In this document: positions 360 through 64,000 of the stretch, in pieces
Layout of the letters: every line of letters starts with the position of its first letter
Numbering within the stretch: position 1 is the stretch's first letter
Origin: Eublepharis macularius
Lineage: Eukaryota; Chordata; Lepidosauria; Squamata; Eublepharidae
Reading direction: 5' to 3'
DNA: 64,000 nt
Assembly: GCF_028583425.1 (NCBI RefSeq)
Contig: NC_072795.1
Coordinates: 10,067,001 to 10,131,000 of the forward strand
Notes under the pieces: model-generated
Database searches by the model: none
What the model was told of the DNA's origin: nothing
What the model saw: the letters and a program-made list of their open reading frames with translations, nothing else
Translations under genes and position numbers: made by a program

Positions 360-985
360 TTTCAGACAGGTAGCCATGTTGGTCTGCACTACAGCAGCAG
401 AATTGGAGTCCTGTGGCACCTTATATTCTGGCAGGATTTTCTGTCCAATTGAACATGAAGCATTTTCATTGGAAAAGCAGACTCTGTTTAGGATAGCCTT
501 TCCGACACACAGTCTGTGCTTTTTCCATCATAGCACTTACCCTATAGAATGGACTTCCTGAGAAGGTGAGGGAACACGAGAGCCAGTTTGGTGTAGCCGT
601 TAATAGCATAGGACTCTAATCTGGAGAACTGGGTTTGATTCCCCACTCCTCCACTTGAAGCCAGCTGGGTGACCTTGAGTCAGTCACGGCTTCTAGGACT
701 CTCTCAGCCCCACCCTTACAGGGTGATGATTGTTGTGGGGATAATATGACATACTTTGTAAACCACTATGAGTGGGAGTTAAATTGTCCTGAAGGACGGT
801 ATATGTTGTTGTTGTTGTTGTTGTTAGCTACCTGGAAAGGGTTTTATGAAGCACTATGACTCTACTGTATTTGGGAGGACTCTTAATGGAGTATAGGGTG
901 CAGGAATTTGGGGGAAGGGGTGACATGGAACTTGTAAGCTGTCTTGAGTTATGGGAAAGATGGGATATAAACATTATAATACATA
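360..985 (+). repeat. Old LINE 3'-tail remnant
   Basis: The stretch has its paralogue at about 55005-55400. In copy B it keeps short peptide runs typical of the C-terminal end of Jockey-type LINE ORF2 (ALWNGLPEKARERA-like) followed by a short 3' tail ending near 'gggatataaacatt'. It is interrupted here by the Sauria SINE at 578-826, while copy B has the empty site. The LINE family (L2 or CR1 kin) cannot be fixed by eye. Confidence 0.35.
578..826 (+). mobile_element. Sauria-type tRNA-derived SINE
   Basis: It starts GAGAGCCAGTTTGGTGTAG, carries a pol III A box and a B box (GGTTTGATTCCCC), a tRNA-unrelated body, and the Bov-B-like tail (CTGAAGGACGGTATAT) ending in a TTG simple repeat. A near-identical full copy lies at 16849. 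The matching position in copy B (near 55216) lacks it, so it inserted in copy A after the duplication. Sauria SINEs are restricted to squamates, which is the best single clue to the organism. It is not a tRNA gene: the tRNA-like part lacks a full cloverleaf. Confidence 0.9.
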
Positions 986-1593
986 TAAAAATAACTCACA
1001 GTAACATTATAACTGTTTAATGCAGTGACCTCTGAATTCCTTCCTTCCTTCCTTGAGATATTTTTAATTATGGAAGTTGTCAACTAAAAAGGCTAGGAGA
1101 TCATGGCAAAATCGTTTTAGCATTATTGCATATTAGCATAATAGCAATTGCTACTATTTGTACAAGACTGCTGCAGGAGAAAATGGTGGCTGCAGATGGT
1201 TCAAGCAGGAAAGGCATAGGGGAAATTACTGTGTGGATGCTCTATTGTCACTGCAAATGTCTCTGCAGGAGGCTATGTGGCAACAGCTTTCCATGTACGC
1301 GAGTTCATAGACAGTCAAATCAATCTGAAATTATTATGTATCAGTCATAAATAAATGCAATGGTTTCTAAAAATCCTCAAGTCTGATGTTCATCAAATTA
1401 TTTATTCAATTTATTTTAAACATGTTAATGCCGTCTTTTTACCCTATGGAGTCCCTAAGGTGGCAAACATAAAAATATTAAAACATAATTCAATCAAAAC
1501 AAGTAAACACATAAACACACAGCACCAAAACCAGAGAGAATGGCCAGTAAGAGTGATTGAGGAGGCCACGTTGGAGTGGATCAAGAACCCAAG

Positions 1594-2160
1594 TCATCTA
1601 CCCTGTGCAATGCTGGCTGCACTGGCTCCCAGTTGAGTTCCTGATCCAGTTTAAGGTATCGGTTCTAGTATTCAAAGCCCTTTGCAGACTGGGACCTGCA
1701 TACCTGTGGGAGCGCCTCTCTCAGTATGTCCCCCGCAGGGCCACGACTAGGCCCAGGGCCTTTTCTGCCCTGGCCCCGGCCTGGTGGAATGCTTTCCCAC
1801 TGGAGATCTGGGCCCTGTGGGACCTAATACAAGTCAAGTCAATACAATTCAGCAGGGCCTGCAAGATGGAGATGTTCTGCAGAGCCTTTGATTAGGGGCC
1901 AGTTTTGTATCCCCCCCCCCTTTCTGGCCGCTTTTCCATCCTTTTGCAGCCACCCTGGATTTATACTGGTGCCTGGTGCCCATGGCTTGTAGTGATTTTT
2001 TAGTAACCTGGTTTGATCAGTGGTGCCTGAATTTTTTAATCTGGATTAAGTGGCTGTAATGTTTTTATTGTATTTATTGATATATTGTTGGAAGCCGCCC
2101 TGAGCCTGCTTGCAGGAAGGGTGGGGTATAAGTCAAATAAATAAATAAGATAAATAAATG
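1594..2160 (+). mobile_element. L2-like LINE 3' fragment
   Basis: The plus strand reads WLPVEFLIQFK, then FKALCRLGPAYLWERL and PRAFSALAPAWWN, the standard C-terminal end of L2-clade ORF2. This is followed by a 3' tail ending in AATAAATAAATAAG. Copy B joins the flanks directly ('gacccaagt' to 'gtacccaagg'), so the fragment is absent there. It is 5' truncated, as usual for L2. Confidence 0.7.
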
Positions 2161-3109
2161 AGTTATACCCAAGGTGTCCCCAAGAAAAAAAGTCTTCACC
2201 TGCTTGCAGGAGCCCACAACTGAGGGCGATAGACAACTCTCTAAGGACAGGGTTCCAAAGTTTCATCAATGTGTTCCAGAAGGCCCTTTCTCAAGCAGCC
2301 TCAGATGACAGGGGCACCTGAAACAGGGTCTCCAAAGATGACACGACAGGCAGATTCATATGGAAGAAGGCAATTCTTACAGTGCAATCCTTCATTAATT
2401 GTTTTGAGACACTATCTACAAAATACAATGATACTTACTTATATTGAGTACACTTCTATTCAACATTTAAGTTTTAAATTTCATAACGAATCTGTTTTAC
2501 AATTGTAATGTTTGTTTCATCATTACTATATATTGAATATTATGTACTTTCAGCACTTCTACATACCTGCTATTATTTTTAGCAAATAGATAACATATCT
2601 GAATACAACATTAAAATCTATTATATATCTCATGATAAGAAAATAAAGGATATTTCTGCTCAAGTTCTTCTTCTTTATATATCTGTATTCAAGATTCTTA
2701 TTCTTACGTTCAATTCTTTTGTTGATAAATCAAGTAGTCCTTTGTTGATTGAGCCACGACTGCTCATTAAAATTGAACAAAGTGTCCTCGATTATCAGAT
2801 ATGTTCCCCATAAACTTCATGGCATCCCTAATTAAAATAGCATAAAAATGGGGTAATTCAACAGTCAGATAGAGGGAAATGGATTCTGTAGTAGCCCTGA
2901 ATTTTTCAGTGCTGGAAGATGAGAGTAAATGAGGGCTTTGCTTCTCTGAAACATATAGCTGGCCAATATCAGAGACATATCACTAAAACAGATGGGACTA
3001 TTAGCAGACAGACCCCTCTCATGCTGGATGGATGCAATATCATAATACATACCTAGAATAATGAGGTTGCCCAAGAACTCCTGGCTAATCCCATCAAAGT
3101 CTTGCTTCT
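2161..3109. other. Intron sequence, no gene recognised
   Basis: AT-rich sequence with short open frames only. It is missing from copy B, where 'caagaaaaaaggctgggtc' follows directly. It is either an insertion in A or a deletion in B. I see no coding motif, terminal repeat or RNA gene. Confidence 0.5.
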
Positions 3110-3700
3110 CTTCCACAAGCCACCTATCCTAATTCAAAGCTAATCCTAATTCAGCACACCTGATAGCCTTCCTATCAGGTACTTACTGGGTCATCAAGCA
3201 CTGTTCACACCTTTAGTCTACCACAGGGAGAGATGTTAAACCTCTCCAGACTTGTTGTCCAAACCTCCAGACAAGCCATCAAGCCATCACCTCTGGGTAC
3301 ATTTTGCCCTATAACTAGATTCCCCAGACACCAGCTTGTGTTTTTGTGTGTCCTAGATCCGTAGAAATGCTGGTTGTTTTTCTACTCCTTCATAGACATT
3401 CTCCTTGTTCAGGTCTGAACATTATCACCCTATCCCAATTATTCTCTACCATTTTCAACCCAGTTTTCCTAGCTAGTCTAGTATGTGTGCCATGTATTTT
3501 TGACCCCATTTGATTACCTTTTCCTTCCCTTTAAATAAACCTTTGCTGTTGAATATCTGCCTGATTCATTTGAGAGTTCTGTAAGGGAATAATCCCTATA
3601 TACATAGGTTGAGAATCCCCGTAACCCCCTCTTGCTTCTCTCCATTACTGCTAATTCCCCCATCTAATTAAAGAGACCTCCTATTTGAGTAACAAGAATA
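3110..3700 (+). mobile_element. LTR-type fossil with short leader (copy A)
   Basis: This is one of four related stretches (also 6450-7110, 19860-20440 and 56120-56765). They share a TATA-like box ('ccctataa'), a poly(A) signal (AATAAA near 3535), a U5-like run 'gagagttctgtaaggga', and an LTR end near 'tataca' followed by a TTGGTGGAGA-type primer-binding-site leader. It lies in intron 2 of the dead P450 copy and is shared with copy B, so it predates the duplication. It is a remnant without coding capacity; the family is not determined. Confidence 0.55.
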
Positions 3701-3848
3701 ATTCAACAATGGCATTCCAGTTCTTTTTTTTTTTATTAGAAAGAGGGTAGCTTTTCAACACACAATTTGTTTTCTAGGCTGACAACCTAAACATATTTTA
3801 ATAGTAAAATTTTTACTGCTAATTTCTCATTGATTATCCTGACCTTAG

Positions 3849-4425
3849 GTATTGCACTGTCAAATGGCCACACCTGGAAGCAACAGAGGAAGTTTGGCGT
3901 AGTTGCCATGAGAAGGCTGGGACTGGGGAAGAATGGCCTGAAGGATCAAATACAACAAGAGGCCCAACAACTTGTTGAGACTTTTGCATCCCAATGCAAC
4001 CGATATTGTTTCATCATAGAGTATGCAAGTGAATACTACGGGAGATTTGTGTAATGGCCTGAGGAAAGAGACAAGTCTGAAACGAGTGCAAAGAAGCCGG
4101 CAAGGCTCGTCGCCTTTTCCTTACGGGGTTGCAGCCTTCCCTCTTGAAGTCTCGCAACTCGAATTTGACAGCCTGTTTGCAGACGCCAGCCTGAATATAG
4201 GGCGGCTTTCCGTCTACACCAAACTGTTTTTGAATTGTTCCTGATTGTTTGGAACTGTTTATTGTGGGGACTATACGTGTCCTACAGTTGTCATTATTAC
4301 TACACCAATTGGGGTCTGAATGTTAATATACCCTATGTTGATAAATCACGCCTAGTAGTGTTTCTTTGTGTGCTTCCTCGAGTCTCGGGCTCCCTTCTGA
4401 TCTGAGTCTTTTGCATCTGCAAAAG
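3849..4425 (+). pseudogene. CYP2J-like: Cytochrome P450 family 2 (CYP2J-like) copy A, exon 3, split by an insertion
   Basis: Exon 3 starts after the acceptor 'cttag' at 3848 and ends at the donor G|GTATGTG at 4425. It encodes GIALSNGHTWKQQRKFG and the helix C WxxxR motif (W-KQQ-R), which in P450s binds the haem propionate. Removing the insertion at 3991-4407 plus one target-site copy leaves exactly 150 bp, the standard length of CYP2 exon 3 and the length seen in copy B. The insertion adds 427 bp, shifts the frame and brings a stop, so this exon cannot give a normal protein. About 6 of 50 residues differ from copy B. Exons 1-2 would lie upstream of the window, and no exons 5-9 were found downstream. 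Intact P450s of this family are ER-bound monooxygenases acting on fatty acids and xenobiotics. Confidence 0.92.
3991..4407 (+). mobile_element. 417-bp insertion in a P450 exon, probably a Penelope-like fragment
   Basis: The insert is flanked by the 10-bp repeat CTTTTGCATC (3981-3990 and 4408-4417), which occurs once at the paralogous site in copy B. It codes for nothing clear. Near 4064 it has CTGAGGA, a short AGAC/GTCT stem and then GAAACGAG, resembling the hammerhead-type core found in Penelope-like terminal regions, but the expected cleavage-site base is not right. The PLE call is therefore inference; the insertion itself is direct observation. Confidence 0.6.
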
Positions 4426-5464
4426 GTATGTGATATTACAAAACTGAGCTTGCCCAAGATTACTGTGGCATACCTGGGGTTTTTTCCCATTATTCACTGG
4501 ATGTTTGGATTAATTTAACTGTACAAATAGGGTTGTCACAGCTCTAAAGCAGGCCTGGAGATCTTCCAGAATTACAACTGATATCCAGACTACTGGAGTA
4601 AATGCCCCTGAAGAAAATGACTGCTTTGGAAGGCGTTCTTTATGTTATTATGCCCCGTTGAGGTTCCTCCCCTCAGTAAACCTTGCCCTCTCCAGGAATT
4701 TTACACACTGGAGTTTGCAACCCTATGTACATAGGACTGTAAATAACAAGTGGCTTAGATGTTACCAAATTTATTATTTGCTGGGGTCTACTGGAAATAA
4801 GTTCTGGGCTTGGAGTTTCAGCTATTGGAAGAAGATGAAGCTAACTCTGAGATTACCCAGGTAAGAATATTACCTGCCTGAGAGATATAGGTACTATGAA
4901 GAAATAGCTTCATCTTCCTCCAAGGCCTAAGTGCAGCACTGGATGCAATAGATTACACTGGGCTAGAGTCTAATAGTTGGAGGAAAGGAAAGCTGCTTCT
5001 TCAGAATTCTGCCTCGTCATAGACTGTCTTGCCCAAGCTGAATTCCATAAATAGCCTTGGCTCAGACAAGCTGAGAAGAGGGAAATTATCTCTTTGTTTC
5101 AGGATTAGTGCTAATCCTGAGCTTTTGTGAAGACCTGTTGCCTAGCTGCTAACTGCACTAAAAACTTATTTTTAAAAAAAAATTACTCCATTTATACTCT
5201 CCCATTCTCCACAATGGGGACCCAAAGTGGATTACATCATCCTCTCCTCCATTTTTCTCACAACAGTCCTGTGAGGTAGGTTAGACTGAGAGTATGTGAC
5301 TGGCTCAAGGATAACCCAGCAACATTCCAAACAGAGCAGGGAATCAAACCTGAGTCACCCAGATCCTATTTCATCACTTCAGATATTGGAAACACTGGAA
5401 ATCCACTCTGAGTATTCCCGGAAGGGGGACAATATTAATATCTTGCAAACAATATTATTTGCAG
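4426..5464. other. Intron 3 of P450 copy A
   Basis: It is collinear with intron 3 of copy B apart from the CR1 present only there. It holds a MIR-like SINE at 5165-5385 and no coding sequence. The acceptor TTTGCAG ends at 5464. Confidence 0.7.
5165..5385 (-). mobile_element. MIR-like SINE (minus strand)
   Basis: The plus strand reads CCTGTGAGGTAGG, a 'gactggctcaagg' run and 'gggaatcaaacctgag', the reverse complement of a tRNA-derived CORE/MIR-type SINE. The same element lies at 62020-62225 in copy B, so it was present before the duplication. Confidence 0.55.
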
Positions 5465-5625
5465 GGCAGCCGTTTGACCCTTCAATGCCCATCACTAATT
5501 GCGTCTCCAATGTGATCTGTGCTGTGGCTTTTGGACACCGGTTTTCTCTTGAAGATAAAGAATTTCTCAAGCTGATGGAAGCCATTGACTACATGTTAAA
5601 ATTTACAGGTAGCATCGTTCATGCT
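5465..5625 (+). pseudogene. CYP2J-like: Cytochrome P450 family 2 (CYP2J-like) copy A, exon 4
   Basis: The exon is exactly 161 bp, the standard length of CYP2 exon 4, with acceptor TTTGCAG before it and donor GTAAGTC after it. It encodes GQPFDPSMPITNCVSN, VICAVAFGHRFSLEDKEF and a helix-F-like LKLMEAIDYMLKFTG. About 6 of 54 residues differ from copy B. The exon is open and its splice sites look good. It belongs to a gene whose exon 3 is disrupted and whose later exons were not found, so I call it part of a pseudogene. Confidence 0.9.
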
Positions 5626-6449
5626 GTAAGTCATTTCCTTTTTCTTATTGGGTCAGACAGCTATCCCTCAGATTTCCTTTTCTTCTAGCCTTAACATGAA
5701 CAGTTGACTAGGGATGCAAAAGAATTGCACATGTTATCCAGTTCCCTCAAATGTTGATGCTTTGAACGGGTTATTTCAGGATAAGAAAACACATTCATTT
5801 TGATAATGAACAACAGACAAATAGACGGGAGGCTCCTTGTTCATATGTTTGGATGTAAGAATCATTTTTCACACCTCTGCTGTACCTCTACTGGCTGATC
5901 ATTCCTTTGTAATGCTGATGTCTCAGACTGAGTAGTTGACATATCTTGAGTAAATCTGTTTCCTGTTTTGAGCCCCTGGCCATGCTAAACCAGTGAGGAA
6001 CATTTGACTCAGTAGTTTAAGAGAAATGAACCATTTTTTTAAATTGAGATAAAACATATGTTCAGCAGAGAAATTCTAAAGACATATAACAGATGATTAC
6101 ACAGACAAGTTCCCAGACTTTTTTGCATAATTCCATCTCATTTATTCACTCGAGACCAATATGACCCATGTTTTAATCACATCTTCCACATTCCTATAAA
6201 CCAGTACCCTCTTCGTCACTTCGTTAGCAGTTAGACCTTGCCCCACATGGAAAGAGCAGTTCATGAATATGGAATATAATAAACCCCTTCCTCTTCTGCC
6301 ATAAGCACAAAATACCGCCTAGCAAGGCAGAACAGATGCCAACCCCGGCTGGAGTTGGAAAATTTCCAGAAGATGTGTCAGATTGACTACCTGCCCTTTC
6401 ATGCCCCAGAGAAGCACTTAAGTGAAACAAAGAGGCCTTCTAGGAGTTC
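5626..6449. other. Start of intron 4 of copy A, then unassigned sequence
   Basis: The first 200 bp match copy B up to its L1 insertion. After that I see no exon 5 (which should carry a PWLM/FPGxHQ-type segment), no clear repeat and no RNA gene. Confidence 0.5.
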
Positions 6450-7110
6450 TTGCTTTATCTCATCAATGCCCTGCCATACCTTCCCTCACTCACCTTCCTA
6501 ATCAGCTCTATTCAGTGTACCCGATAGCTCTCCCCATCCAGCAATTGCTGGGTCATCAAGCCTGATTCACAACTTTTAACTGTCAGGTAGATTCATTAAG
6601 CCTCACCTAACTTATTGTCCAACCCTCCAGACAAGCCATCAAGCCTTGGTCTTTGAGGTAAGATGTCACTCTGTCCCAGGATACGTTTTGCATTATAATT
6701 GGGCTGCCCTCAGCCATGTGAAGTATGTGTGTTCTGGGACCCATCTACGTGCACCCAGATTAAGTCTGAGCCCTCCCATCTCCTATGTGTAGTGCTGGTT
6801 GTTTTGCTGCTCCTCCACAGACCTTTTCTCTTTCTTCAAGTCTGGTAACTAGAACCCTCCCTAAAACTGCTTTCCCATTTCCTCACTATTTTCTTAGCTA
6901 GTTCTGTGTGTATGTTGTGTGTGGTTGTCTGTGGATTTGCCTTTCTATGTTTTCTGTTAATAAAAAACAGAGAACATAGAAGTTCTGCCTGTTTATTTGA
7001 GAGTTCTCTAAGGGAACAATCCTGGTATACATTGGTGTAGATCCCACTTACCCCTTCTCACTGTGTCTCCATGATTGCTAGTTCCCCCTACTCATAAGGA
7101 CCCCCCCCCA
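6450..7110 (+). mobile_element. LTR-type fossil with short leader
   Basis: It aligns by eye with 3110-3700 and 56120-56765: 'gctgggtcatcaagcc', 'cctccagacaagccatcaag', a poly(A) signal (AATAAA, near 6960), 'gagagttctctaaggga' and then 'ggtatacattggtgtaga', the LTR end and primer-binding-site-like start. No coding part was seen. It is diverged from the other copies, so probably old. Confidence 0.55.
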
Positions 7111-7383: not shown

Positions 7384-10300
7384 GGGACTTCTGGTCTGGA
7401 AAGACAGCGACCTGACATTGTTCAGCAAGCTGAGCAATCAAGGGTTCCTGTTTCAGCAGGTCAGGTACACCAGATACCTGCTGCCACTCTTCTACAGGGA
7501 GAAGAAGAGCTAAGATGCTACAAGCCCTGGAGAGTGTCTTATCTCGGTGCAGGGGGAAGCCCTGAATCAAGGATTTCTCCCAGCACCTTGAGATCCCCTC
7601 GGAGACGGGCGAGCTTCGACCTCTGCAGGACCCTTTTTGAGCCATAACTTGGCATAAGATCACCAGAATCCAGGCTTCTTCAACATAATTTAATCAACAT
7701 TGACTATAAGAAGCAGCATGAAAAAACCACAAAGAATAAAGCAAGGTAAAGATGTTTATCTATTTTCAGGACTAAAAAATAAGAAGAAAAGAATGTTAAA
7801 AAGTGAAAATATTAGGAAAAAATTAGGATCTTACAAGAACAATTGAGGGTTTTTGCGAATAAGGAATTAGAATGGAATTTAAAAAGACTGCAGCAAAAAT
7901 CCTTTGAAGGAGCAAACAAGCCAGGGAAATTTTTAGCCTGGCAATTAAAGAAAAAGAGGGGGAAAAAATAATTACCAAAATTTTGGAAGATGGGAAAGAA
8001 GTAGTGGAACACCAAGGAAAAAAGGAGTTTTCTACAAATAAGCCAAATTATTCCAAGAGAAGCTAGTTAATAAAGAAGAAATAGATCAATATTTGGATAA
8101 GATGAAGATACCTAAGATTTCAGATTCCATGAGGGCAACTCTGAATTCTCCAATTACCGAAGAGGAAATTACTAAATCTATAGATTCAATGAAAATGGGG
8201 AAAACGCCAGGTCCAGATGGAATTTAAGCTAAATTTTATAAAATTTTGAAAAAAGACTTGGTGCAAGTTCTACAAATTTTGATGAATGAGACAATGAAGA
8301 AAAGGGGATTACCAAATACATGGGAAGAATCTAATATCTCATTGATTCCAAAAGAGGCGCAAGACTTAATAGATGTTAAAAATTATAGGCCGATTTCTTT
8401 GTTAAACAGTGACTATAAGATCTTTGCAAGAGTTCTAGAGGAAAGATTAAAGATATTTTTAATGGATTTTATCGGAGAAGAACAAGCGGGGTTTTTACCT
8501 AACAGACAAATAAAGGATAATTTGAGAGTTGTTATCAATGCTATAGAATATTATGATAAACATCCTGAAAAAGAGGTAGGCTTTTTGTTTGCGGATGCAG
8601 AGAAAGCCTTTGACAATTTAAACTGGGACTTTGTTTTTAACAATGGAAAAGATGAGTTTGGGGCAAGAATTTATAGAAGCCATAAAGGCAATTTACCATG
8701 ACCAGCAAGCTACATTATGTATAAATAACGATTTGATGGAAAAATTTGAGGTAAGAAAAGGTATACGTCAAGGATGTCCACTTTCACCGTTGCTGTTCGT
8801 TATGGTCTTGGAAATACTGCTAAGACAGATAAGAGAAGATCAAAGTATTAAAGGTATAAGACTTAAAGGTTTCTCTTATAACTTCAGAGCATTTGCAGAC
8901 AATGTGATGTTTATTACTGAAGATCCGGTCCAGACATTACCGCTATTGTTGAACAAGATTAAGGAATTTGGAGATTTGGTGGGTTTTCATATTAACAAAT
9001 TAAAATCTAAATTGCTCTGTAAAAATATGACGAAAGTGAAACAGGTTAAACTAATGAATCTTATAGAGTGTGAAGTGGTCCAGAAAACAAAATACCTGGG
9101 AATAGAATTGACAATGAAAAATATAGATTTATTTAAGAATAATTATGAAAAACTGTGGATACAGTTGGAAAAAGATTTAATAAAATGGAACAAATTGAAT
9201 CTGTCACTGTTGGGTAGTATATCGGCGGTGAAAATGAATGTATTGCCAAGAGTGATGTTTTTACTACAAACAATCCCAATTGTAAAAGAGAAAAAGCAAT
9301 TTGATAAGTGGCAAAGGAAACTATTAAATTTTGTGTGGGCGGGGAAAAAGCCAAGAGTTAAGATGAAAGTGTTGTGTGATGCAAAAGAAAGAGGTGGCTT
9401 ACAATTACCAAATTTGAGATTATACCATGAAGCAGTTTGTTTGACATGGTTAAGAGATTGGGTAAACTTATCTAATCGTAAGTTGTTAACTTTGGAGGGC
9501 CATAATAATCTTTTTGGCTGGCATGCATATTTATGGTATGATAAATATAAAATGGATGGAATGTTTCAGCATCATTATGTAAGGAAAAATGTTTTTTCGG
9601 TATGGCAAAAATATAAAAATTATGTAGAGGAGAAAAGACCATTATGGATTATCCCGGCAGAGGTGATAAAACTACATACAGAATATCAAGGCAAAGACTG
9701 GATAACTTATAAGGACTTATTGTTGATTGAAGGAGATACAGTTAAAATGAAGAAAGAAGATTTACCTTTTAAATATGGATGGTTACAATATCGACAAATT
9801 AAAGACCTATTTGAATCAGATAAAAAAAGTGTTGGTTTTAGAACTAGAAATTTGGAACTAGAAGAACTTCTGTTAGGAGAGGGAACAAAGATAATTTCAA
9901 AATTTTATAAATTGTTATTGAAACGGTATACGGAAGATGAAGTGGTTAAGATTCAAATGGTGAAATGGGCTTTAAATTTTAACAAAGAGACTACCATGGA
10001 GGCATGGGAATATCTGTGGAAAAATGCTATGAAAATATCTACATGTGTTAATTTAAAAGAAAAGGGATATAAGATGATGTATAGATGGTATTTAACACCA
10101 AAAAAACTAGCAAATATGAGCAATGCTATGTCAAACAAATGTTGGAAATGTAAACAACATGAAGGCTCTTTCTACCACATGTGGTGGACTTGTGACAAGG
10201 CAAAACAGTTTTGGTCTAAGATGTACACAGAAATGTTGAAAATTATGAAGGGTAACCTGCCAAAAAATCCCGAAATGTTCTTGTTAGGACTTAATATGGA

Positions 10301-10795
10301 AAATGTAAATGCAGGAGATAGAACATTACTATGGTATACGATTGTAGCAGCTAGATTACTGTACACGCAATATTGGAAGCAAGAGGAAATACCAGAAGTT
10401 GAAGAATGGATACAAAAACTGTTATCTATGGTGGAAATAGATAAGTTGACCAGAAAACTGAGGGAGCAAAGTTCAAATGAATTTTTAAGAGATTGGGAAA
10501 AACTTAAAGAATATTTGGAAAACAATTGGGATGTAAAAGGTCAATGGATAACTTTTGATTTGCGTAGAATAATGGGGTAAGCTTTATGTATGAACTTTAC
10601 CTTTGAAAATAAGGAGAAGTAATAGAATAGAAGGAATATTTTAAGAATTAAAAGGGTTTTACTGCTGTTGGGGGTCAAGGGAGAGGGAGGGAGGGAAGGT
10701 GGGGAATGCATATATCAATTTGTAATTGTAAGGAAAATGAGACGTAGAGAAAAAATGAAGTTGATTTCATATGTAATACTCATGTTAACCTACCC
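7384..10795 (+). mobile_element. L1 LINE, internally deleted, 5' UTR joined to mid-ORF2
   Basis: The first 350 bp resemble the L1 5' UTR seen at 62677: a GGACTTCYGGT start, 'ttggcataaga' and 'aaggtaaagat'. By about 7830 the sequence is already inside ORF2 between endonuclease and RT, so ORF1 and the endonuclease are missing. ORF2 then runs through RT and C-terminal domain to 10580. The 3' UTR has the G-rich run (gggagggagggaagg) typical of L1 and fades out near 10795 without a clear poly(A) tail. I could not find a convincing target-site duplication. Confidence 0.8.
8246..10580 (+). pseudogene. L1 ORF2p fragment: reverse transcriptase and C-terminal domain
   Basis: Two overlapping frames (8246-8701 and 8631-10580) cover L1 ORF2. 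The first has NYRPISLLN and FADAEKAFD, the first catalytic Asp block. The second has GIRQGCPLSPLLF and, where FADD is expected, FADN, so one of the two catalytic aspartates is replaced by Asn. The C-terminus keeps the cysteine motif CWKCKQHEGSFYHMWWTC (C-x2-C-x8-H-x4-C) known to matter for L1 RNP function. A frameshift lies near 8640-8660, and a TAA sits just upstream, where a GPDGI-AKFYK type motif is read. The element cannot make an active RT. ORF2p normally nicks the target and copies L1 RNA there. Confidence 0.9.
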
Positions 10796-11411: not shown

Positions 11412-11695
11412 TGCGAGCCTGCGTGCATCTGCAAATGACCACTCATGAGACAGAGGACCGCACCTTCCCTCAAACCATCAGACCACTGCTTGCCTGGGCG
11501 ATGCAAGCCTGTGTGACCCTGAAAGGATAAGGCCATGCCCTATGAGACAAGGTCATACCACCCAGGTGAATGACCCAAATGTTAGGCGGAGGCCACTCTT
11601 CCCTTCCAGCTCATGAGGCCACTTTGCCCATGCGTGCAAGTTTGCATGAGCCTATATTGGAAGGGTCAGGCCCCACATCCAAAGTCATTACTCCA

Positions 11696-13326
11696 GAATT
11701 TATCTACAAGAAGGAACCCCTTTGTGGGTGGTTCCATATGAGGTGATAGACCCGAGAGCTGTTGATAATGAACAACAATGTTTAACGTATAAAGAAATAA
11801 CTAAAACTGAAGCATCCAAACTTAGAATAAAGACACAAGAGGAACTATCACCTAACTACGATTGGTTCCAGTATAGACAGATCAGAGACTTATATAATTC
11901 GGACTCTGTAAAGGGAGGTATACGAATAGAGAATTCGGAACTAGAGCAGACCCTTCTTAAAGAAGACAAGAAAAGAATATCCAAGGTATACCAAGTACTG
12001 TTGAAGTGGTATACCGAGGATGAGATAGTTAAAACACAAATGATGAAATGGGCTATAAACTTTAATAAAGAAATAACAATGGAGGCATGGGAATACTTGT
12101 GGAAAACTACAATGAAGACAACGACATGTATTAATATCAAAGAGAACATTTATAAAATGATCTATCGTTGGTACATGACACCAAAGAAGATTGCGCTAGG
12201 GAATTTGAATACTTCTAATAAATGCTGGAAATGTAAGAAGCATGAGGGCTCCCTCTATCATATGTGGTGGTCGTGTGAGGTAGCCAGGCAGTACTGGGGG
12301 GAAATAATAAGAGAAATGAGTGAAATTTTACAATTTCAAATTAATAAGAACCCAGAACTCCTGCTACTGAACTTGGGAATGGAGGGAATTCCAGCCCAAC
12401 ACAGGACGTTGATATTTTATATGACAGCAGCAGCTAGACTTTTGTATGCGCAAAAATGGAAAGTACAAGAAGTGCCAACTATTGAAGATTGGACTTACAA
12501 ATTGCTGTATATGGCTGAAATGGACAAGATGACAAGAAAATTGAGAGATCTGGACTCAGGGCAGTTCAACACAGACTGGGAGAAGCTGAAACAATACCTG
12601 GAGAAGAAATGGCAGGTGGGAGGAAAACTGTGGCAGTTTGAGAACTACTGAAGTATTGAAGTAGAGGGGGGAGACTTTACCGGGGGGAGAAGAGATAAAT
12701 GTGAATTAATAAGCAGTCAGATTAATAGATTGACATATATATAGATATATATAGGTTAACAAACAGAACATAGAGAAAATAATTAATTATAAGGACTAAA
12801 TATAAGGAGCGATTAACTAACAATATTTTCTTTTTTTTCTGACAAGTTTTGTACCAAACTGAATGTCTGAAGATATAGATGGGTCAAATTGATTGACTAC
12901 GTGAGGAGAGATATATAGAACTATTATAAAAAGATAGAATGAGTAATATATATAGAGAATAAGTCAAATTGTTTGATATAAACGAATGTATGATCTATAT
13001 GGTTTATGATATATAGAAATACCTGAAATTGAAAAATTGGGATAAATTGTTTATCTAAGATGGAAACAAAGGCTTACAGTTTGGGCATATAATGTTAAAA
13101 ATAGTTAAGGATGTACTGCTTAGAATAATGAAGAATATATATTTGTTTTAGATAGAGGAAGCTAATAAAAGTAAGGGAAAGGGGACAAAGGGTTGGAAAG
13201 CTGTTGAAGTCAACAAAAAGGGGGGGGAAAGGGAGGGGGTTAGAGATGAAAAAATTGGGGAAAATTGAATGTAAATGTGGAAATAATGGATTCTAACCCA
13301 ATAAAAATTTTTCAAAAAAAAAAAAA
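11696..13326 (+). mobile_element. 5'-truncated L1 LINE with perfect target-site duplication
   Basis: The element is flanked by the 16-bp direct repeat CAAAGTCATTACTCCA (11680-11695 and 13327-13342). It begins inside ORF2, has the G-rich 3' UTR (ggggggggaaagggagggggtt) and the conserved L1 end CCAATAAAAATTTTT followed by poly(A). It inserted into the older retroelement fossil. The perfect duplication and long open frame suggest a fairly recent insertion. Confidence 0.95.
11722..12651 (+). pseudogene. L1 ORF2p C-terminal part (309 codons open)
   Basis: This is an uninterrupted C-terminal ORF2 segment ending at the natural stop. It carries the cysteine motif CWKCKKHEGSLYHMWWSC and the conserved WEYLWKTTMK and YRWYMTPKKIA stretches. 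Endonuclease and RT are absent through 5' truncation at integration, so it has no function of its own. The same region is found at 10060-10580 and 22271-22754. Confidence 0.92.
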
Positions 13327-14537
13327 CAAAGTCATTACTCCACAGGGTGCACCGGGCCACATTGCCTATGCATGCTTGTTTATGGGGCCTGTAATGAAAG
13401 GGGCCGTACCCTTGAGAAGCCCAGCTCATTACCCCCAGGTGAAGGACCAGGAGTAAGGCAAAGGACCTCATCTCCCATCAAACAGCAGTAGCAGCCCAGC
13501 CATCATCAGCCCAGTGGCTAAGTACAAACTTGCCAGACCCTTCCTTAAGGGCTTGTGCCATCGCTGCCCTAACCCTCAGGATCTAACTCCCAAGCCAACC
13601 ATTAACATCGTGCAACCCTAGAAATCACCTGAAATCAAACTAAGGTTTACTGGCAAACCTAAAGGCACCTAAGCCACCCGATGGCTACCACTGGATATGA
13701 GGCAAGCCCCTTCACATTCCACTTCCCCATAACTAAGGAAAAGATGCACCAGCTCAGCCATAACTCCTACAGCCCAACCTGCACCCCAGCCTAGCAACTG
13801 CCAGCCAGTGAGTCATAGGTTCACTGCATGCTGGGGGTAATGGTGCCTGGTTGCCAAGCAACCACAGCCCTCCCTGTAAACATAGTTCAGAGGAAATCCA
13901 AGGAATAAGCTGCCTGTTCCATCTTCAGGTAAGACCAGGCGTTGCCTTGAAACATAAATGCCAGGACCAGTCTCCAGGACCCGTCTCAAAATCCTATGCC
14001 ACTTGGATGAAAGAAGGTTAGGTATGGGTACCGCTGCCTAATCGTCCACGGGAAGAGGGCTGAAGGGTTATCTACTTCCATCCCCCGCAATCCAACTGCC
14101 ACGAGGATTGGAAAATTCCAAATATATATGGTCTATAGTAAAACCCACATTCTGACTGGTAAATGGGCCACTGTTCAGCCCACCAGTGTTCCTGAAATAA
14201 ACCCAGAAGCCATTGGGCCCAAGGCAGTGGAAACTCCAAGGAAACTCCACTTCTAGGTTCAAACAATCTGGAGACAAGGCTCGGTGCCCCACCAGCTGCT
14301 GTAGCTCTCATAAAGGAGGCCAGCTAGCAGCCACCTGGCCCAGGTGAGGTAAACCTTCTTAAGTCTCATTTACTTGTCTCCCTCCCCAGGTCCACCTCAT
14401 CCTTCTCCTCCACTGAAGAGGAGGGTTAACCTCTAACATGCTGCTCCCTTTATGACTGTGTCCCTGATGGACTGAGTTAAGAAATAACCCAGTGGCCAAA
14501 CTGCAAAACTCAAAGACAAGACCCAAGATTTTGGGTC

Positions 14538-27811: not shown

Positions 27812-29315
27812 CTAGGCAAAAAGACAGGGGGAACGGTCCCAAACTCCAAGACAAAGGCACACTAAGGACACGCCAAAAGACCGCTGCTGCAATCCAAAAC
27901 TTTATTCATAAATGCCGAGGGTCAAATCAAAAGGACAGGGGAGCACCCACTCTCTCCGGCTGCTCCCGGCAGGAGATTGGCAACGGGTTTGCCTGGCTAA
28001 ATTGTCCCGTTTTGCAAGGCTCACAGCTTCATCAAAAGCAACAAATAAATTCTACAATGAAATATACAATACATATGTTGGTTACATCACAAACTGAAAC
28101 AAAACAATGTACATTTTATTTTAAACAGTGTAACAAAATTTCAATAAAGATTGCAACAAAACATTACCTTGGTGTAAAGTGTATTTCCTTTACTGCAAAA
28201 TAACCTGCTGGACAAGAATCAAGTTTCTTCTTAGTTTTAGTTAAACAAAATTTCCTCTCTTGTCGGCAGTTGTGTGGGCGGGCAGCAATTAAGTAGCCTG
28301 CCAAACATCCAATTTGTAACTCAAGGAATCAGGTTTAAAGGGAAAACCAGACCAATTTTGCATTAGAAAGCTACCCCAAAAATGGGGTGAAATCTATCTC
28401 CTGGTTAAGACCATTAGGGGCCATTGTCCTGAGGTTAAAAATCCATTTAGCTTCCAACCGAAGAAGTGCTTTTCGATCTATTTTCCCACCATTTGGTTTT
28501 AGTACCTGAAGGACTGTGTAGACAAATTCCCACTCATTTCTGTGATGCTGAATAAAGTGCTGTGTCAAAGGTGCATCTGTAACAGTACTTCTAATTTTAG
28601 ACATATGCTCCTGTATACGGAGCCTCACTGTCCTAGTTGTACTGCCAATATATAGGAGGTTGCAAGTACACTTGATACCATAAATTACCCCTGGTGTGCT
28701 GCAAGTAGAGAAATCCCGTGTTTGCAACTTCTCTTTGGTCACGGGATGTGAGAATTTATCTACATTAGCAGCCATGGAACAGATATTGCAATGGCCACAA
28801 GAAAAGTGGCCCATAGGCTTGTTTGCCACCACAGGGGTATATATACTTGCAACCTCCTATATATTGGCAGATCGAAAAGCACTTCTTCGGTTGGAAGCTA
28901 AATGGACTTTTAACCTCAGGACAATGGCCCCTAATGGTCTTAACCAGGAGATAGATTTCACCCCATTTTTGGGGTAGCTCTCTAATGCAAAATTGGTCTG
29001 GTTTTCCCTTTAAACCTGATTCCTTGAGTTACAAATTGGATGTTTGGCAGGCTACTTAATTGCTGCCCGCCCACACAACTGCCGACAAGAGAGGAAATTT
29101 TGTTTAACTAAAACTAAGAAGAAACTTGATTCTTGTCCAGCAGGTTATTTTGCAGTAAAGGAAATGCGCTTTACACCAAGGTAATGTTTTGTTGCAATCT
29201 TTATTGAAATTTTGTTACACTGTTTAAAATAAAATGTACATTGTTTTGTTTCAGTTTGTGATGTAACCAACATATGTATTGTATATTTCATTGTAGAATT
29301 TATTTGTGGCTTTTG
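27812..29315. mobile_element. Two Penelope-like copies joined head to head (inverted repeat)
   Basis: A minus-strand PLE (27812-28832) meets a plus-strand partial copy (about 28833-29315). Arms of about 440 bp (roughly 28028-28480 and 28865-29315) are near-identical inverted copies covering the end of the GIY-YIG gene and its 3' tail. The plus copy lacks the middle of the nuclease domain: it jumps from the LLYIG region to the RKALLRLEAK region. A short reverse piece of Sauria SINE 5' end (29316-29341) follows directly. Inverted partial copies are a known outcome of Penelope integration. Confidence 0.85.
28371..28832 (-). pseudogene. GIY-YIG endonuclease of a Penelope-like element (153 codons open)
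   Basis: Reading on the minus strand: Cys cluster SCGHCNICS, then GVIYGIKCTCNLLYIGST, the conserved Arg in RLRIQEHMSKIR, and the Glu-containing end RLEAKWIFNLRTMAPNGLN. All GIY-YIG landmark residues I can check are present. It ends FTPFLG before a stop, the natural C-terminus judging by the second copy at 28977. The RT part is missing. It is close to the PLE at 22010-24031 and distinct from those at 14530 and 25275. Confidence 0.87.
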
Positions 29316-37840: not shown

Positions 37841-37941
37841 TTTTTCTTTTTAAAGTTTTATTTATTTAAGAAATAAACAAAACATAAAAATACAGTTACA
37901 CAAAGACCCACTCAATGTCAACAAAAAATTTAGCTAACAGA

Positions 37942-39433
37942 TTCGGTTTCATTTTCCCGGCCATGTCGGACGCTCCTCTCCGCAGGTCCGGGAGGAAGCG
38001 CCCGAGCAGCCTGACTGGGCAGTTGACCTGCGAGGGTTAACCCCCAGGACTCCCAGTGAGGGGGTCAGGGTCTGGAGCGCGTCAGGAAGAGCCCCCTGAA
38101 GTCGATGCAGGGGGTAAATTGCCCGTTTGCTCCTACGGAGGCCGGCAGACTTGTGGAGCACATTGCGTGCTGCCGGGCCATGGAGAATGGCAAAAAGCAG
38201 ATTTAAGGTGAAAACCTGTAAGTAGCGAATCCCTTCTGTCATTTCAAGCGTATGTGAAGGATTGGTGGGAGTTGAAGCTAAGAAGGTTCGGATATCTCCC
38301 CCTTCATTGAGTCTCGGAACTTAGTTGGCGGATTCCCCACCCCCCTAAGATGGCGACGAAAAAGTAGAGCCCTGCTATGGGCAAATCTGTTTCGGCTGCC
38401 TTGAAGGGGAAAGGAGAGTCTCTTGAAGAGCTGGTTAAGCGGTCGGTTGTCAAAGCTATAAAGCCCTTTGTTGATAAGCTGAATGAAATCGGTCAAAGGG
38501 TTGGCTCAATTGAGAGTGAAGTGAAAACCATTAAGGAAGCAGCCTCGGGGGCAGAGCAGTCTGCTCGGGAAAACGCAGAACTCATGAAGGCAACAAACAA
38601 AGAAGTAAAGCTTTTGGAGAATCAACTGATAGGGCTACAAGTGGATCGTGCTCAGACGGTATTGCATCTCCAGAATGTGAAGGAGGAGGAAAGTGAAAAT
38701 TTAAAGGACTTGGTGTCGGAACTTTTGGCGACATCCGCAAAGGCAACTAAAGAAGAGTTAAAAAGCGACATTTTGGAAGTCCGTCGGACATCTTCAAAAT
38801 ATGCAACGAAGCGTCAGCTGCCTCATGAGATCATTATCGACTTTTCATCTAAGAAGACTCGGGACACCATCTTATATAATTCGTACAATGTGGATTTGGA
38901 CTTTCTGGGTAACAAGGTTAAGATATTGAAGGACGTTCCATTTTTAGCTCGGAAAAGAAGATTTAAATATAAAAGGTTTGCAGCTCTTCTGAGGAAGCGT
39001 GAAATAAAATACAAATGGTTATTTCCGGAAGGTATCTGGTTTAGTTATAAAGACCAAGCCTACAAGATAATATCGGAAGCACAGCTAAGGGACTTTGTGT
39101 CTAATCATCAAGAGTTCCAACAAGAAGAGGACTTAGAAGCTGAAGGGGGGGAGGAGGGAGCGAGCACAGCTACTGTAGCTGTTCAGAGAGAGCTGCGACT
39201 GAGACGCAGGGGGGGGGGGAGAAGACCTGATCCTGATTGTAGTTTGTATTTTATAAGATCTACCAATCTAATAGCATATTATAAAGTTTTAACTTTAAAC
39301 AATTGTAGTATGAAGGGAAAGCAATACCTGTAGATGTAGTGTGTGTGTTTTTATATGTTGTTTTTTCCCTTTCCCCCTGTTCCCATTTTTCCCTTTTAGT
39401 AGTGTTAGTAATTAAAAATAAAATTTATTTAAA
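37942..39433 (+). mobile_element. Half-L1 (ORF1-only, HAL1-like) element with intact ORF
   Basis: Perfect 19-bp target duplication AAAAAATTTAGCTAACAGA (37923-37941 and 39434-39452). The element has about 435 bp of 5' leader, one open frame (38377-39333), then a short 3' UTR ending AATAAAATTTATTT plus A's. No ORF2 or endonuclease sequence occurs in it. It inserted in the 3' UTR of the older minus-strand L1. Mammalian HAL1 elements have the same plan; I do not know of this one being named. Intact ORF and perfect duplication point to a young insertion. Confidence 0.85.
38377..39333 (+). CDS. L1 ORF1p-like RNA-binding protein, intact (318 aa)
   Basis: The first 100 or so residues form a coiled coil (LEELVKRSVVKAIKPF, then NELIENQ-type heptads up to LLENQLIGLQ). 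Then comes an RRM-like part with LHLQNVKEEESENLKDLV at about 105-125, the counterpart of LRFRGLPEVEGK in the L1 at 63592. A C-terminal domain follows with LPHEIIIDFSSKKTRDTIL at about 150-168 and IKYKWLFPEGIWFSY at about 208-222. The tail is acidic then Arg/Gly-rich (RLRRRGGGRR), coded across a run of ten G, and may vary in frame between copies. L1 ORF1p trimerises and coats L1 RNA. This one would need ORF2p from another L1. It is not a host gene: it lies within a TSD-flanked insertion. Confidence 0.87.
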   Translation: MGKSVSAALKGKGESLEELVKRSVVKAIKPFVDKLNEIGQRVGSIESEVKTIKEAASGAEQSARENAELMKATNKEVKLLENQLIGLQVDRAQTVLHLQNVKEEESENLKDLVSELLATSAKATKEELKSDILEVRRTSSKYATKRQLPHEIIIDFSSKKTRDTILYNSYNVDLDFLGNKVKILKDVPFLARKRRFKYKRFAALLRKREIKYKWLFPEGIWFSYKDQAYKIISEAQLRDFVSNHQEFQQEEDLEAEGGEEGASTATVAVQRELRLRRRGGGRRPDPDCSLYFIRSTNLIAYYKVLTLNNCSMKGKQYL

Positions 39434-39636
39434 AAAAAATTTAGCTAACAGACAAAACTAACAAAGTTCTAAAACTTCTTTCCAACTGAATGTCCAACAT
39501 TCCCAACAGGAAGGTCTCTGGTTTCAATTGTATTTTAGTCTTTAAAATCTCATGAATTAATAATTGTATTTGTGACCTTTTTTTTTTTTTTTTTTGCTTT
39601 TCTTACATGTTCACCACATATGGTAAAATGACCATT

Positions 39637-62676: not shown

Positions 62677-64000
62677 GACTTCCGGTTCGGGATTCATGGA
62701 GGTCTGAAGCAGCTCCACTTGCGGAGCTGACCGGACTGCCGTTTTTAAGCGGCCGGCGGGGGAAATATAGCCCGCGGCTGACTGCTCTCAGGCGGAGAGC
62801 AGGCAAAGAATGCTCAAGACCCTAGGGTGTGTTTGATCTCGGACGAGGGGGGGGCTCTACGCAACGGGTCCCCTCCCGATCCTTGAGGTCCAACCCTGCG
62901 ACAGGTCGGCTACGATCTCTGCGGCAGTTCTGGGGCCAACCTGGTTGGCATAAGACCTACATACCCAAGCTTCGATTTGGGGAAAAAGTGGAGAGGAGAA
63001 TTTAAAATCGAAACAGCGACTACAACCCAAGAAAAGTGAATGAGAAGGTAAAGATCACTATCTTCTGATACGGGACAGATTGTTAAAAGTAAAGAAGAAT
63101 AAAAGTAGATTTTCAAACTGCAACAGGCTAATAACAAGGAGGGGAAGACTCGGCAAGAGTTGTATTAGAAAAGAGACTAAGTTTAAAGAAGTTATTAAAG
63201 AAATTGGACTATTGTTTTGAATACTTGCGGTTATGGAGCTGTGAGAAAAAGATACCATCGCGAGACCTACTGTGGGAAGTCGGGAGACAGGAAGTACGTA
63301 ATAACAATAGAGTTGCTGGAGAGAAGCGGCCCTTGCCGGAGGGCAGGAAGAAGGGAATCGCCATCTTTGAAAGGGGAAGGGTCGCGGCTTCAGCGGAAGA
63401 GGAAGCAAGCCATTTTGGATTACAAAAATCATAGAGGAACCATAGAGAAAAGACGCCCGACATTTTGGACTCTTTAAAAATTAGTTTTTGCAAGAAGACC
63501 GGGATATTTGACTAAAAAAGACATTAAATTTTACGCCACGGAGTTAAGGAAGAGAGCGGACTCGTGGGAGCGAGCTAAAGCAAGCCCCACGATGTCGAAA
63601 AAAGAGTGGCAATCGGCAATAGAAAACCTGGATAAAAAACTTTTAGAAGTGATTAAAGAACTTAAAGACACGAAATTGGAGCTGATTAAAGAGGTTAAAC
63701 AGACAGTAAAATCGGAGCTGTCAGAAGTGAAGAAAGGTATGGAAACAATACAAAATGAATTACAAGGAACGCAGCAGAGAGTTAAAGCAGTAGAAGGCGC
63801 GATGGAGAATTTAGCAGACACGCAACAAACAGAGATGAGACTGATGAGGGGAAGAATGGCGGTTGCGGAAAGTAAACACATGGAGAAGCAGCTGAGGTTT
63901 CGCGGCTTGCCGGAAGTGGAAGGAAAGACAGCGCAAGAACAGATGACTGAGGTGTTAGCTGAATACCTGGGGAAGGAGGAGGAGGAAGTTGTGGCTATCC
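62677..64000 (+). mobile_element. L1 with full 5' end, running off the window
   Basis: It begins GACTTCCGGTTCGGG at the point where copies A and B diverge ('aatagacgggagg' in A). The 5' UTR of about 915 bp is GC-rich at first (promoter-like), then A-rich. ORF1 starts at 63592. A relative of this 5' UTR is joined to ORF2 in the L1 at 7384. The 3' end is outside the window, so completeness is unknown, but presence of the 5' end and an open ORF1 suggest a long, young copy. Confidence 0.88.
63592..64000 (+). CDS. L1 ORF1p, N-terminal 136 codons (cut by window end)
   Basis: It opens MSKKEWQSAIENLDKKL and continues as a coiled coil with clear heptads (ELKDTKLELIKEVKQ, then METIQNELQGTQQ, then MENLADTQQTEMRLM). 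It passes into the RRM-like domain at LRFRGLPEVEGKTAQEQ. No stop or frameshift is seen to the window end. The start is the first ATG of the frame after the 5' UTR. The protein would form trimers that coat L1 RNA. It is distinct in sequence from the half-L1 ORF1 at 38377, though domain order is the same. Confidence 0.9.
   Translation, partial: MSKKEWQSAIENLDKKLLEVIKELKDTKLELIKEVKQTVKSELSEVKKGMETIQNELQGTQQRVKAVEGAMENLADTQQTEMRLMRGRMAVAESKHMEKQLRFRGLPEVEGKTAQEQMTEVLAEYLGKEEEEVVAI

Follow-up and report, generated by a model that had tools for sequence, protein, structure and literature searches.

An ORF1-only, L1-like element of Eublepharis macularius and its probable place in a HAL1-type half-L1 family copied by L1 enzymes

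The window analysed here, a stretch of 64,000 nucleotides of Eublepharis macularius DNA, contains at positions 37942-39433 a complete retroposed element whose single gene is related to the ORF1 of L1 elements. This element very probably belongs to a non-autonomous half-L1 family of the HAL1 type, copied in trans by the ORF2p of L1s. In the copies sampled, the family is numerous, divided into several subfamilies and devoid of ORF2; its members have common ends, tails and target duplications, show an L1-like nick preference and selection on ORF1, and L1s with an open ORF2 are present in the same genome. An earlier note, made from the window alone, had recognised the plan of HAL1 in this insertion, a reading to which the common ends, the absence of ORF2, the target duplications and the selection on ORF1 now lend support.

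The element is bracketed by an exact target-site duplication of 19 bp (37923-37941 and 39434-39452), which confirms to the base both the limits and the perfect duplication given in the earlier note. Between the two copies lie a GC-rich leader, one reading frame, and a short 3' end that includes a C/T-rich tract and finishes in an A-rich tail. The features, all on the forward strand, are:

37923..37941, + strand: target-site duplication, 5' copy, identical to 39434-39452
37942..38349, + strand: 5' leader, 408 bp, 57% GC; its start is common to family copies
38350..39208, + strand: family ORF1 frame as far as the second G-run; a TAG at codon 6 (38365-38367) breaks the window copy
38377..39333, + strand: open frame of 318 amino acids, beginning at codon 10 of the family frame
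38422..38688, + strand: predicted coiled coil, residues 16-104 (AlphaFold2 single-sequence model)
38686..39114, + strand: L1 ORF1p RRM-like and C-terminal domains, residues 104-246, by homology to 2ykp, 2yko, 2ldy and 2w7a
39145..39151, + strand: first G-run, 7 G; the reading frame of the stretch downstream differs among copies
39209..39219, + strand: second G-run, 11 G; its length variation sets the C-terminus
39220..39433, + strand: 3' end, with a C/T-rich tract at about 39361-39398 and an A-rich tail at about 39410-39433; the last 199 bp are common to the best 40 3'-end matches and have a counterpart in subfamily D (L090, L091)
39434..39452, + strand: target-site duplication, 3' copy, identical to 37923-37941

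The 408-bp leader is a candidate promoter. The predicted fold of its RNA is not clearly more stable than that of shuffled sequences (z -1.8; 6 of 100 shuffles equally stable), and an Rfam search of 37900-39500 returned no family at the gathering score. The length of about 1.5 kb and the selected ORF contradict a SINE, as does the lack of an Rfam family at that score. A short reading frame within the leader was not taken as coding, since the differences between the window copy and a copy of subfamily C (see below) appeared by eye to be amino-acid changing.

That the insertion is one of many emerges from a genome search with the whole element, in which the best 40 of 5178 loose candidates, window copy included, were scored. 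All 40 extend from base 1-2 to at least base 1476 of 1492, and the 39 others are 91-97% identical to the window copy. When the ORF2 of an L1 from the same genome (locus L049) was compared with these 40 copies by tblastn, there was no match at E 0.01, so that the absence of any trace of ORF2, first remarked in the window copy, extends to the whole scored set. A complementary search used the last 199 bp of the element. Among its best 40 matches, 12 were whole-element copies (again including the window), 9 were inspected with long flanks and 19 with 150 bp upstream; in all 40 the half-L1 ORF1 adjoins the 3' end. Four of the 19 are judged to be truncated or interrupted because the match begins only at element base 1169-1215. 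The earlier note had suggested looking for copies that share both ends and lack ORF2, and the 40 scored copies do both, while ORF1 adjoins the 3' end in all 40 3'-end matches. Every genome search listed the best matches only (39-150); the figures therefore describe a sample and not the whole genome, and an ORF2-bearing relative could be missed for the same reason.

Simple 5' truncation, which the earlier note had already rejected, and a single internally deleted copy are both excluded by the 40 copies with shared ends together with the 40 3'-end matches. Taken alone, the window copy, with its missing ORF2, would indeed permit the idea of one L1 that suffered an internal deletion and was copied locally or recently without founding a family. 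This idea has practically no chance of being right: it is refuted by 40 copies on many contigs with the same ends, whose target duplications differ from one copy to the next and which, with their relatives, form the subfamilies A, B, C and D. Nor is the element an autonomous L1, as an ORF2 with endonuclease and reverse transcriptase is absent from the copies and 3'-end loci sampled.

The leader was searched in the same manner. Of its best 40 matches, 20 were already among the whole-element copies, and the 20 others were examined with about 8 kb each. Thirteen of these are collinear with the element, while seven (L049, L050, L053, L055, L064, L065 and L068) are interrupted, cut or internally deleted. 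ORF2-like stretches lie outside the element in L051, L054, L056, L065 and L067, and a second such stretch in L064. In L056 and L054, ORF2-like remnants of about 32% identity occur soon 3' of the element; the first is situated beyond the target duplication and the second begins about 110 bp past the element end, and by their position both were taken as flanking DNA and not as an ORF2 of the element itself. L064 contains a nested 3' fragment of an L1 with a 17-bp overlap of element bases 1123-1139. A candidate for an ORF2-bearing autonomous relative was L049, where 7.5 kb separate the two ends of the half-L1. The intervening DNA is a nested L1 of 6.1 kb (620-6756, - strand). Element bases 1169-1187 are duplicated on either side of it, a target duplication of 19 bp; it brings an A-tail and an ORF1 unlike that of the half-L1, has an open stretch of 1187 codons in its ORF2, and belongs to the family of the L1 at window position 63478. 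The earlier note would have taken an ORF2 between 39333 and the 3' end of other copies as the sign of a mere internal deletion. In the sample, all 40 3' ends adjoin ORF1, and the ORF2 of L049 is part of the nested L1.

Some of the interrupted loci have peculiarities of their own. In L055 (301-2103), half-L1 bases 1-938 are followed directly by bases 617-1483, either a copy within a copy or a duplication. The leader-bearing copies of L050 and L065 end at near-identical element bases (965 and 970), perhaps through early polyadenylation or a shared breakpoint. L053 has an insert of about 1 kb within the half-L1 (6426-7431) with inverted ends (ATGCCAAGACCACGG and its complement), which resembles a DNA transposon.

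The 40 whole-element copies divide into subfamily A (27 copies, including that of the window) and subfamily B (13 copies), with mean distances of 4.2-4.5% inside the groups and 7.7% between them. This split has a support of 1.000 in a first tree of the 40 copies; when 54 copies are placed in one tree and a distant copy of subfamily C serves as root, bootstrap support for the two deep branches is no higher than 56 and 70, and the terminal branches of A together with B measure 1.2-3.9%. Subfamily C stands farther away, at 81% identity to the window copy. The best 40 matches to the C copy are the copy itself and 39 others at 97-98% identity, 38 of which cover base 1 to at least 1428 of 1435 and one of which covers 56-1435. 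Although its 81% identity to the window copy might suggest an older subfamily, C is younger than A, because its copies are 97-98% alike as compared with the terminal branches of 1.2-3.9% in A and B. The best 40 matches to the 3' end of C include 30 with an ORF1 match directly upstream and one with about 1.1 kb extra, a tally cross-checked by eye against the lists of C copies and protein matches; the other 9 of the 40 are in neither list. A protein search with C reveals a further group, D, at about 92-95% protein identity. Two D loci (L090 and L091) contain the ORF1 tail, G-run, 3' end and A-tail, with no match to ORF2.

The gene itself is less well preserved in the window than it first appears. 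In 37 of the 40 copies, the position equivalent to 38350 is where the longest ORF begins, mostly with MATKKQSP or a near variant, and 28 of the 40 are open for at least 290 codons from this family start. The window copy is not one of them, since a TAG occupies codon 6 of its family frame (38365-38367) and the 318-residue reading begins only at codon 10. The protein that the earlier note had called intact thus starts downstream of a stop in the family frame, which opens at 38350; the window copy is a faded member of the family whose ORF1 is not intact.

The same note was right, on the other hand, in seeing a single, L1-ORF1p-like gene. Human L1 ORF1p (2ykp) is matched across residues 35-246 at E 1.6e-6, and a profile built from four half-L1 and two L1 ORF1s matches 2ykp at E 1.5e-13. 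The Pfam L1 RBD-like domain stays below its cut-off in the window protein (17.3 vs 22.4 bits), and the ORF1 of subfamily C has no Pfam match at E 0.01. With this homology to ORF1p, and no ORF2 match in the 40 whole-element copies, an L1-type ORF1 is the only gene of the element. The AlphaFold2 single-sequence model has a mean pLDDT of 48; ten-residue blocks within residues 21-80 reach 74-88, and the coiled coil is the sole part predicted with confidence, the remainder of the model being untrustworthy.

Beyond about residue 246, the ORF contains the two G-runs, whose length varies from copy to copy and shifts the frame. For this reason the length of open copies ranges from 292 to 330 residues, with the C-terminus lying at 292-296, 301-307, 312-313 or 326-330 amino acids. 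Stop counts over the full query were set aside, as the tail of the query overruns the frame end found in many copies; a shared TAG or TAA in this tail need not mean damage, because the frame of many copies ends earlier. The 3' UTRs of mammalian L1s have a G-rich purine tract, with which the G-runs within 39145-39219, near the end of ORF1, may compare; a G-rich tract is also visible at the L1 ends in L049, L064 and L067.

The copies could, instead of a mobile family fed by sources of its own, be processed pseudogenes that derive from a domesticated host gene of the L1TD1 type; at one locus, a lone L1-ORF1-like gene with an A-tail and target duplications would look much alike. We judge this origin very improbable. 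The copies share an untranslated leader and a 3' end and fall into subfamilies, and many of them are open: 28 of 40 for at least 290 codons, as noted above, and 128 of the 150 best-scoring ORF1 protein matches are stop-free within 242 residues, in a list ranked by score and hence biased toward open copies.

The insertion sites are consistent with the action of an L1 enzyme. Among 54 copies, 46 are flanked by a target duplication, 9-21 bp long with a median of 17; 43 of the 46 reach at least 12 bp. At positions 1 to 4 of the duplication A occurs in 36, 31, 25 and 34 of the 46, where 0.49, 0.36, 0.32 and 0.30 are expected, the expected frequencies allowing for overlap between duplication and A-tail. 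T is present at -2 in 23 of 46 (0.33 expected) and a pyrimidine at -1 in 39 of 46 (0.71 expected). An A-rich start of the duplication with such flanking bases is the type of site that the L1 endonuclease prefers, and the nick preference of the family is L1-like.

Codon comparisons between subfamilies indicate that ORF1 is under purifying selection, the outcome for which the earlier note had proposed a dN/dS test. The majority sequences of A and B differ by 23 silent and 15 amino-acid-changing codon changes, which corresponds to a dN/dS of 0.17 (bootstrap 0.07-0.33); the values are 0.10 (0.06-0.16) for A-C and 0.14 (0.08-0.20) for B-C, where C is represented by one copy. With changes confined to single copies (162 nonsynonymous to 95 synonymous) as a control for mutation bias, the ratio is significantly lower both between A and B (15:23, p 0.0075) and between A and C (60:95, p 2e-6). 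Selection appears strongest in the RNA-binding part (residues 96-245, dN/dS 0.07-0.08), followed by the coiled-coil part (0.09-0.23). The tail past about residue 246, at 0.60-0.77, seems on these ratios to experience weak or no selection.

Inside the groups, the raw ratio is 0.36-0.39, or 0.53-0.85 of the neutral expectation derived from the untranslated parts. That selection looks weaker inside groups than between them is what one would see if the majority of copies are dead from the moment of insertion. Changes shared by two or more copies, presumably the older ones, stand at 0.53 of neutral in subfamily B and single-copy changes at 0.85, which is the expected order; in subfamily A the figures are 0.81 and 0.59, the reverse of the simple expectation.

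The leader is the part that changes least between subfamilies (A-B 2.0%, A-C 12.7%), and dS lies far above its divergence: 0.136 for A-B and about 0.99 for A-C, by a simple counting method that inflates dS where transitions dominate. The slow leader may reflect constraint on the leader combined with this bias of the method, or else an exchange of ORF1 between lineages.

L1s that could provide the enzyme are close at hand. The ORF2 of the L049 family yielded 39 scored matches at 99-100% identity, query copy included, and 35 of the 39 have no stops; this L1 family is young. Since near-identical L1s with an open ORF2 exist in the same genome, donors of the enzyme are present. In the window, 8228-10580 and 11650-12651 represent two L1 families, 60% and 93% identical, respectively, to the ORF2 of L049. 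A further ORF of the window (28371-28856, - strand) contains a GIY-YIG domain (PF01541, E 2.5e-6), a domain that occurs in Penelope-like elements; the ORFs at 14481 and 25515 look similar to it by eye and have no Pfam match at 0.01.

The L1s sampled are not close kin of the half-L1. The ORF1 of the L049 family is 26% identical to that of the window element, which substantiates the earlier observation that the latter is unlike the ORF1 of the L1 at 63592, a member of the same family. Two other L1-type ORF1 families, L089 and L088, reach 29% (over 113 residues) and 24%. No parental or partner L1 was identified among these three sampled families. At the DNA level, a comparison of the half-L1 with the L049 L1, leader and 3' UTR included, revealed no significant similarity (best E 0.25). 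The comparison of 3' ends with autonomous L1s, also proposed in the earlier note, was productive in one respect, a short A/T-rich terminal resemblance to which the likeness of the two 3' termini is confined, and yielded nothing further.

These distances bear on a further explanation, in which the family would not sustain itself: autonomous L1s with such an ORF1 would repeatedly spawn half-L1s or exchange ORF1 with them, and selection would act in those L1s. Mammalian HAL1s did arise from L1 several times, according to excerpted text of PMC5753468, and the divergence of silent sites far beyond that of the leader between subfamilies is what ORF1 exchange would give. We nevertheless regard this explanation as unlikely. 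No ORF2 of the same element turned up in the best 40 whole copies or the best 40 3' ends, and in the 20 further leader matches the ORF2-related finds amount to a nested L1, a nested piece of an L1 and remnants in the flanks. Moreover, 38 of 39 C copies are collinear by their coordinates, the two D loci examined have no ORF2 match, and the sampled L1 ORF1s are very distant (24-29%).

Returning to the reading of a half-L1 family copied in trans, we infer transcription and translation of the element, coating of its RNA in cis, supply of ORF2p in trans and an origin from an L1 via loss of ORF2. The leader of about 408 bp would drive an RNA that codes for an L1-type ORF1p alone, with its coiled coil, RRM and C-terminal domain, and this ORF1p would coat chiefly its own RNA. 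ORF2p, endowed with endonuclease and reverse transcriptase, would be supplied by autonomous L1s of the same genome; it would nick L1-type sites and copy the A-tailed half-L1 RNA into the genome, and the resulting insertions would carry target duplications of about 17 bp. The half-L1 itself would have arisen from an L1 by losing ORF2.

Were ORF1p to serve every RNA alike, keeping ORF1 would bring no benefit to an element that lacks ORF2, and the gene would degenerate. That the ORF1 of a family without ORF2 is under purifying selection hence suggests that ORF1p helps the RNA encoding it, the enzyme coming from elsewhere. A more far-reaching version, which we put forward tentatively and consider somewhat doubtful, is that the family represents an old, self-perpetuating reptile lineage without ORF2: no autonomous counterpart of its ORF1 would be left, its subfamilies, at least four, would always have been without ORF2, and its ORF1p would act on its own RNA while ORF2p came from unrelated L1s. 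A non-mammalian case, if true, suggests that the half-L1 lifestyle would arise wherever relaxed L1s live, and would offer a natural system to separate the preference of ORF1p from that of ORF2p.

Among known elements, HeT-A of Drosophila is a non-LTR element with a coat protein and no reverse transcriptase of its own. The present family too encodes a coat-type protein without reverse transcriptase. However, HeT-A is telomere-specific and its Gag is not of the L1 ORF1 type, whereas the half-L1 copies are dispersed and have target duplications. With the autonomous L1s of the L049 family (window 63478), the half-L1 shares a homologous ORF1 with the LP...I and PEG..F positions, an A-tail and an A/T-rich terminus; these L1s differ in having an ORF2 with endonuclease and reverse transcriptase domains, and there is no significant DNA similarity.

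The closest parallel is mammalian HAL1, which, as characterised in excerpted text of PMC5322556, has ORF1 only, a poly(A) tail and target duplications and depends on the enzymes of full-length LINEs. As far as excerpts of the respective papers go, HAL1s originated several times (PMC5753468), several subfamilies may inhabit one genome, for instance that of the guinea pig (PMC3183009), and a study of L1TD1 names L1 as the likely provider for HAL1s (PMC4161310). On the strength of tailless retropseudogenes in the anole, a relaxed L1 is also predicted for lizards (excerpted text of PMC5322556); a lizard L1 that can copy RNAs other than its own would agree with this. Among the top-listed papers of an open-licence PMC library, no report of a reptile half-L1 was seen, which is weak evidence of absence. 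The HAL1 families described are mammalian, and the present ORF1 has only distant relatives among the L1 ORF1s sampled in its own genome. Otherwise the likeness to mammalian HAL1, as described in those excerpts, extends to the ORF1p-only content, the A-tail, the target duplications, the presumed dependence on L1 enzymes and the existence of several subfamilies. The half-L1 design is thus already known in mammals, and the present family is a further case that displays the testable features of HAL1.
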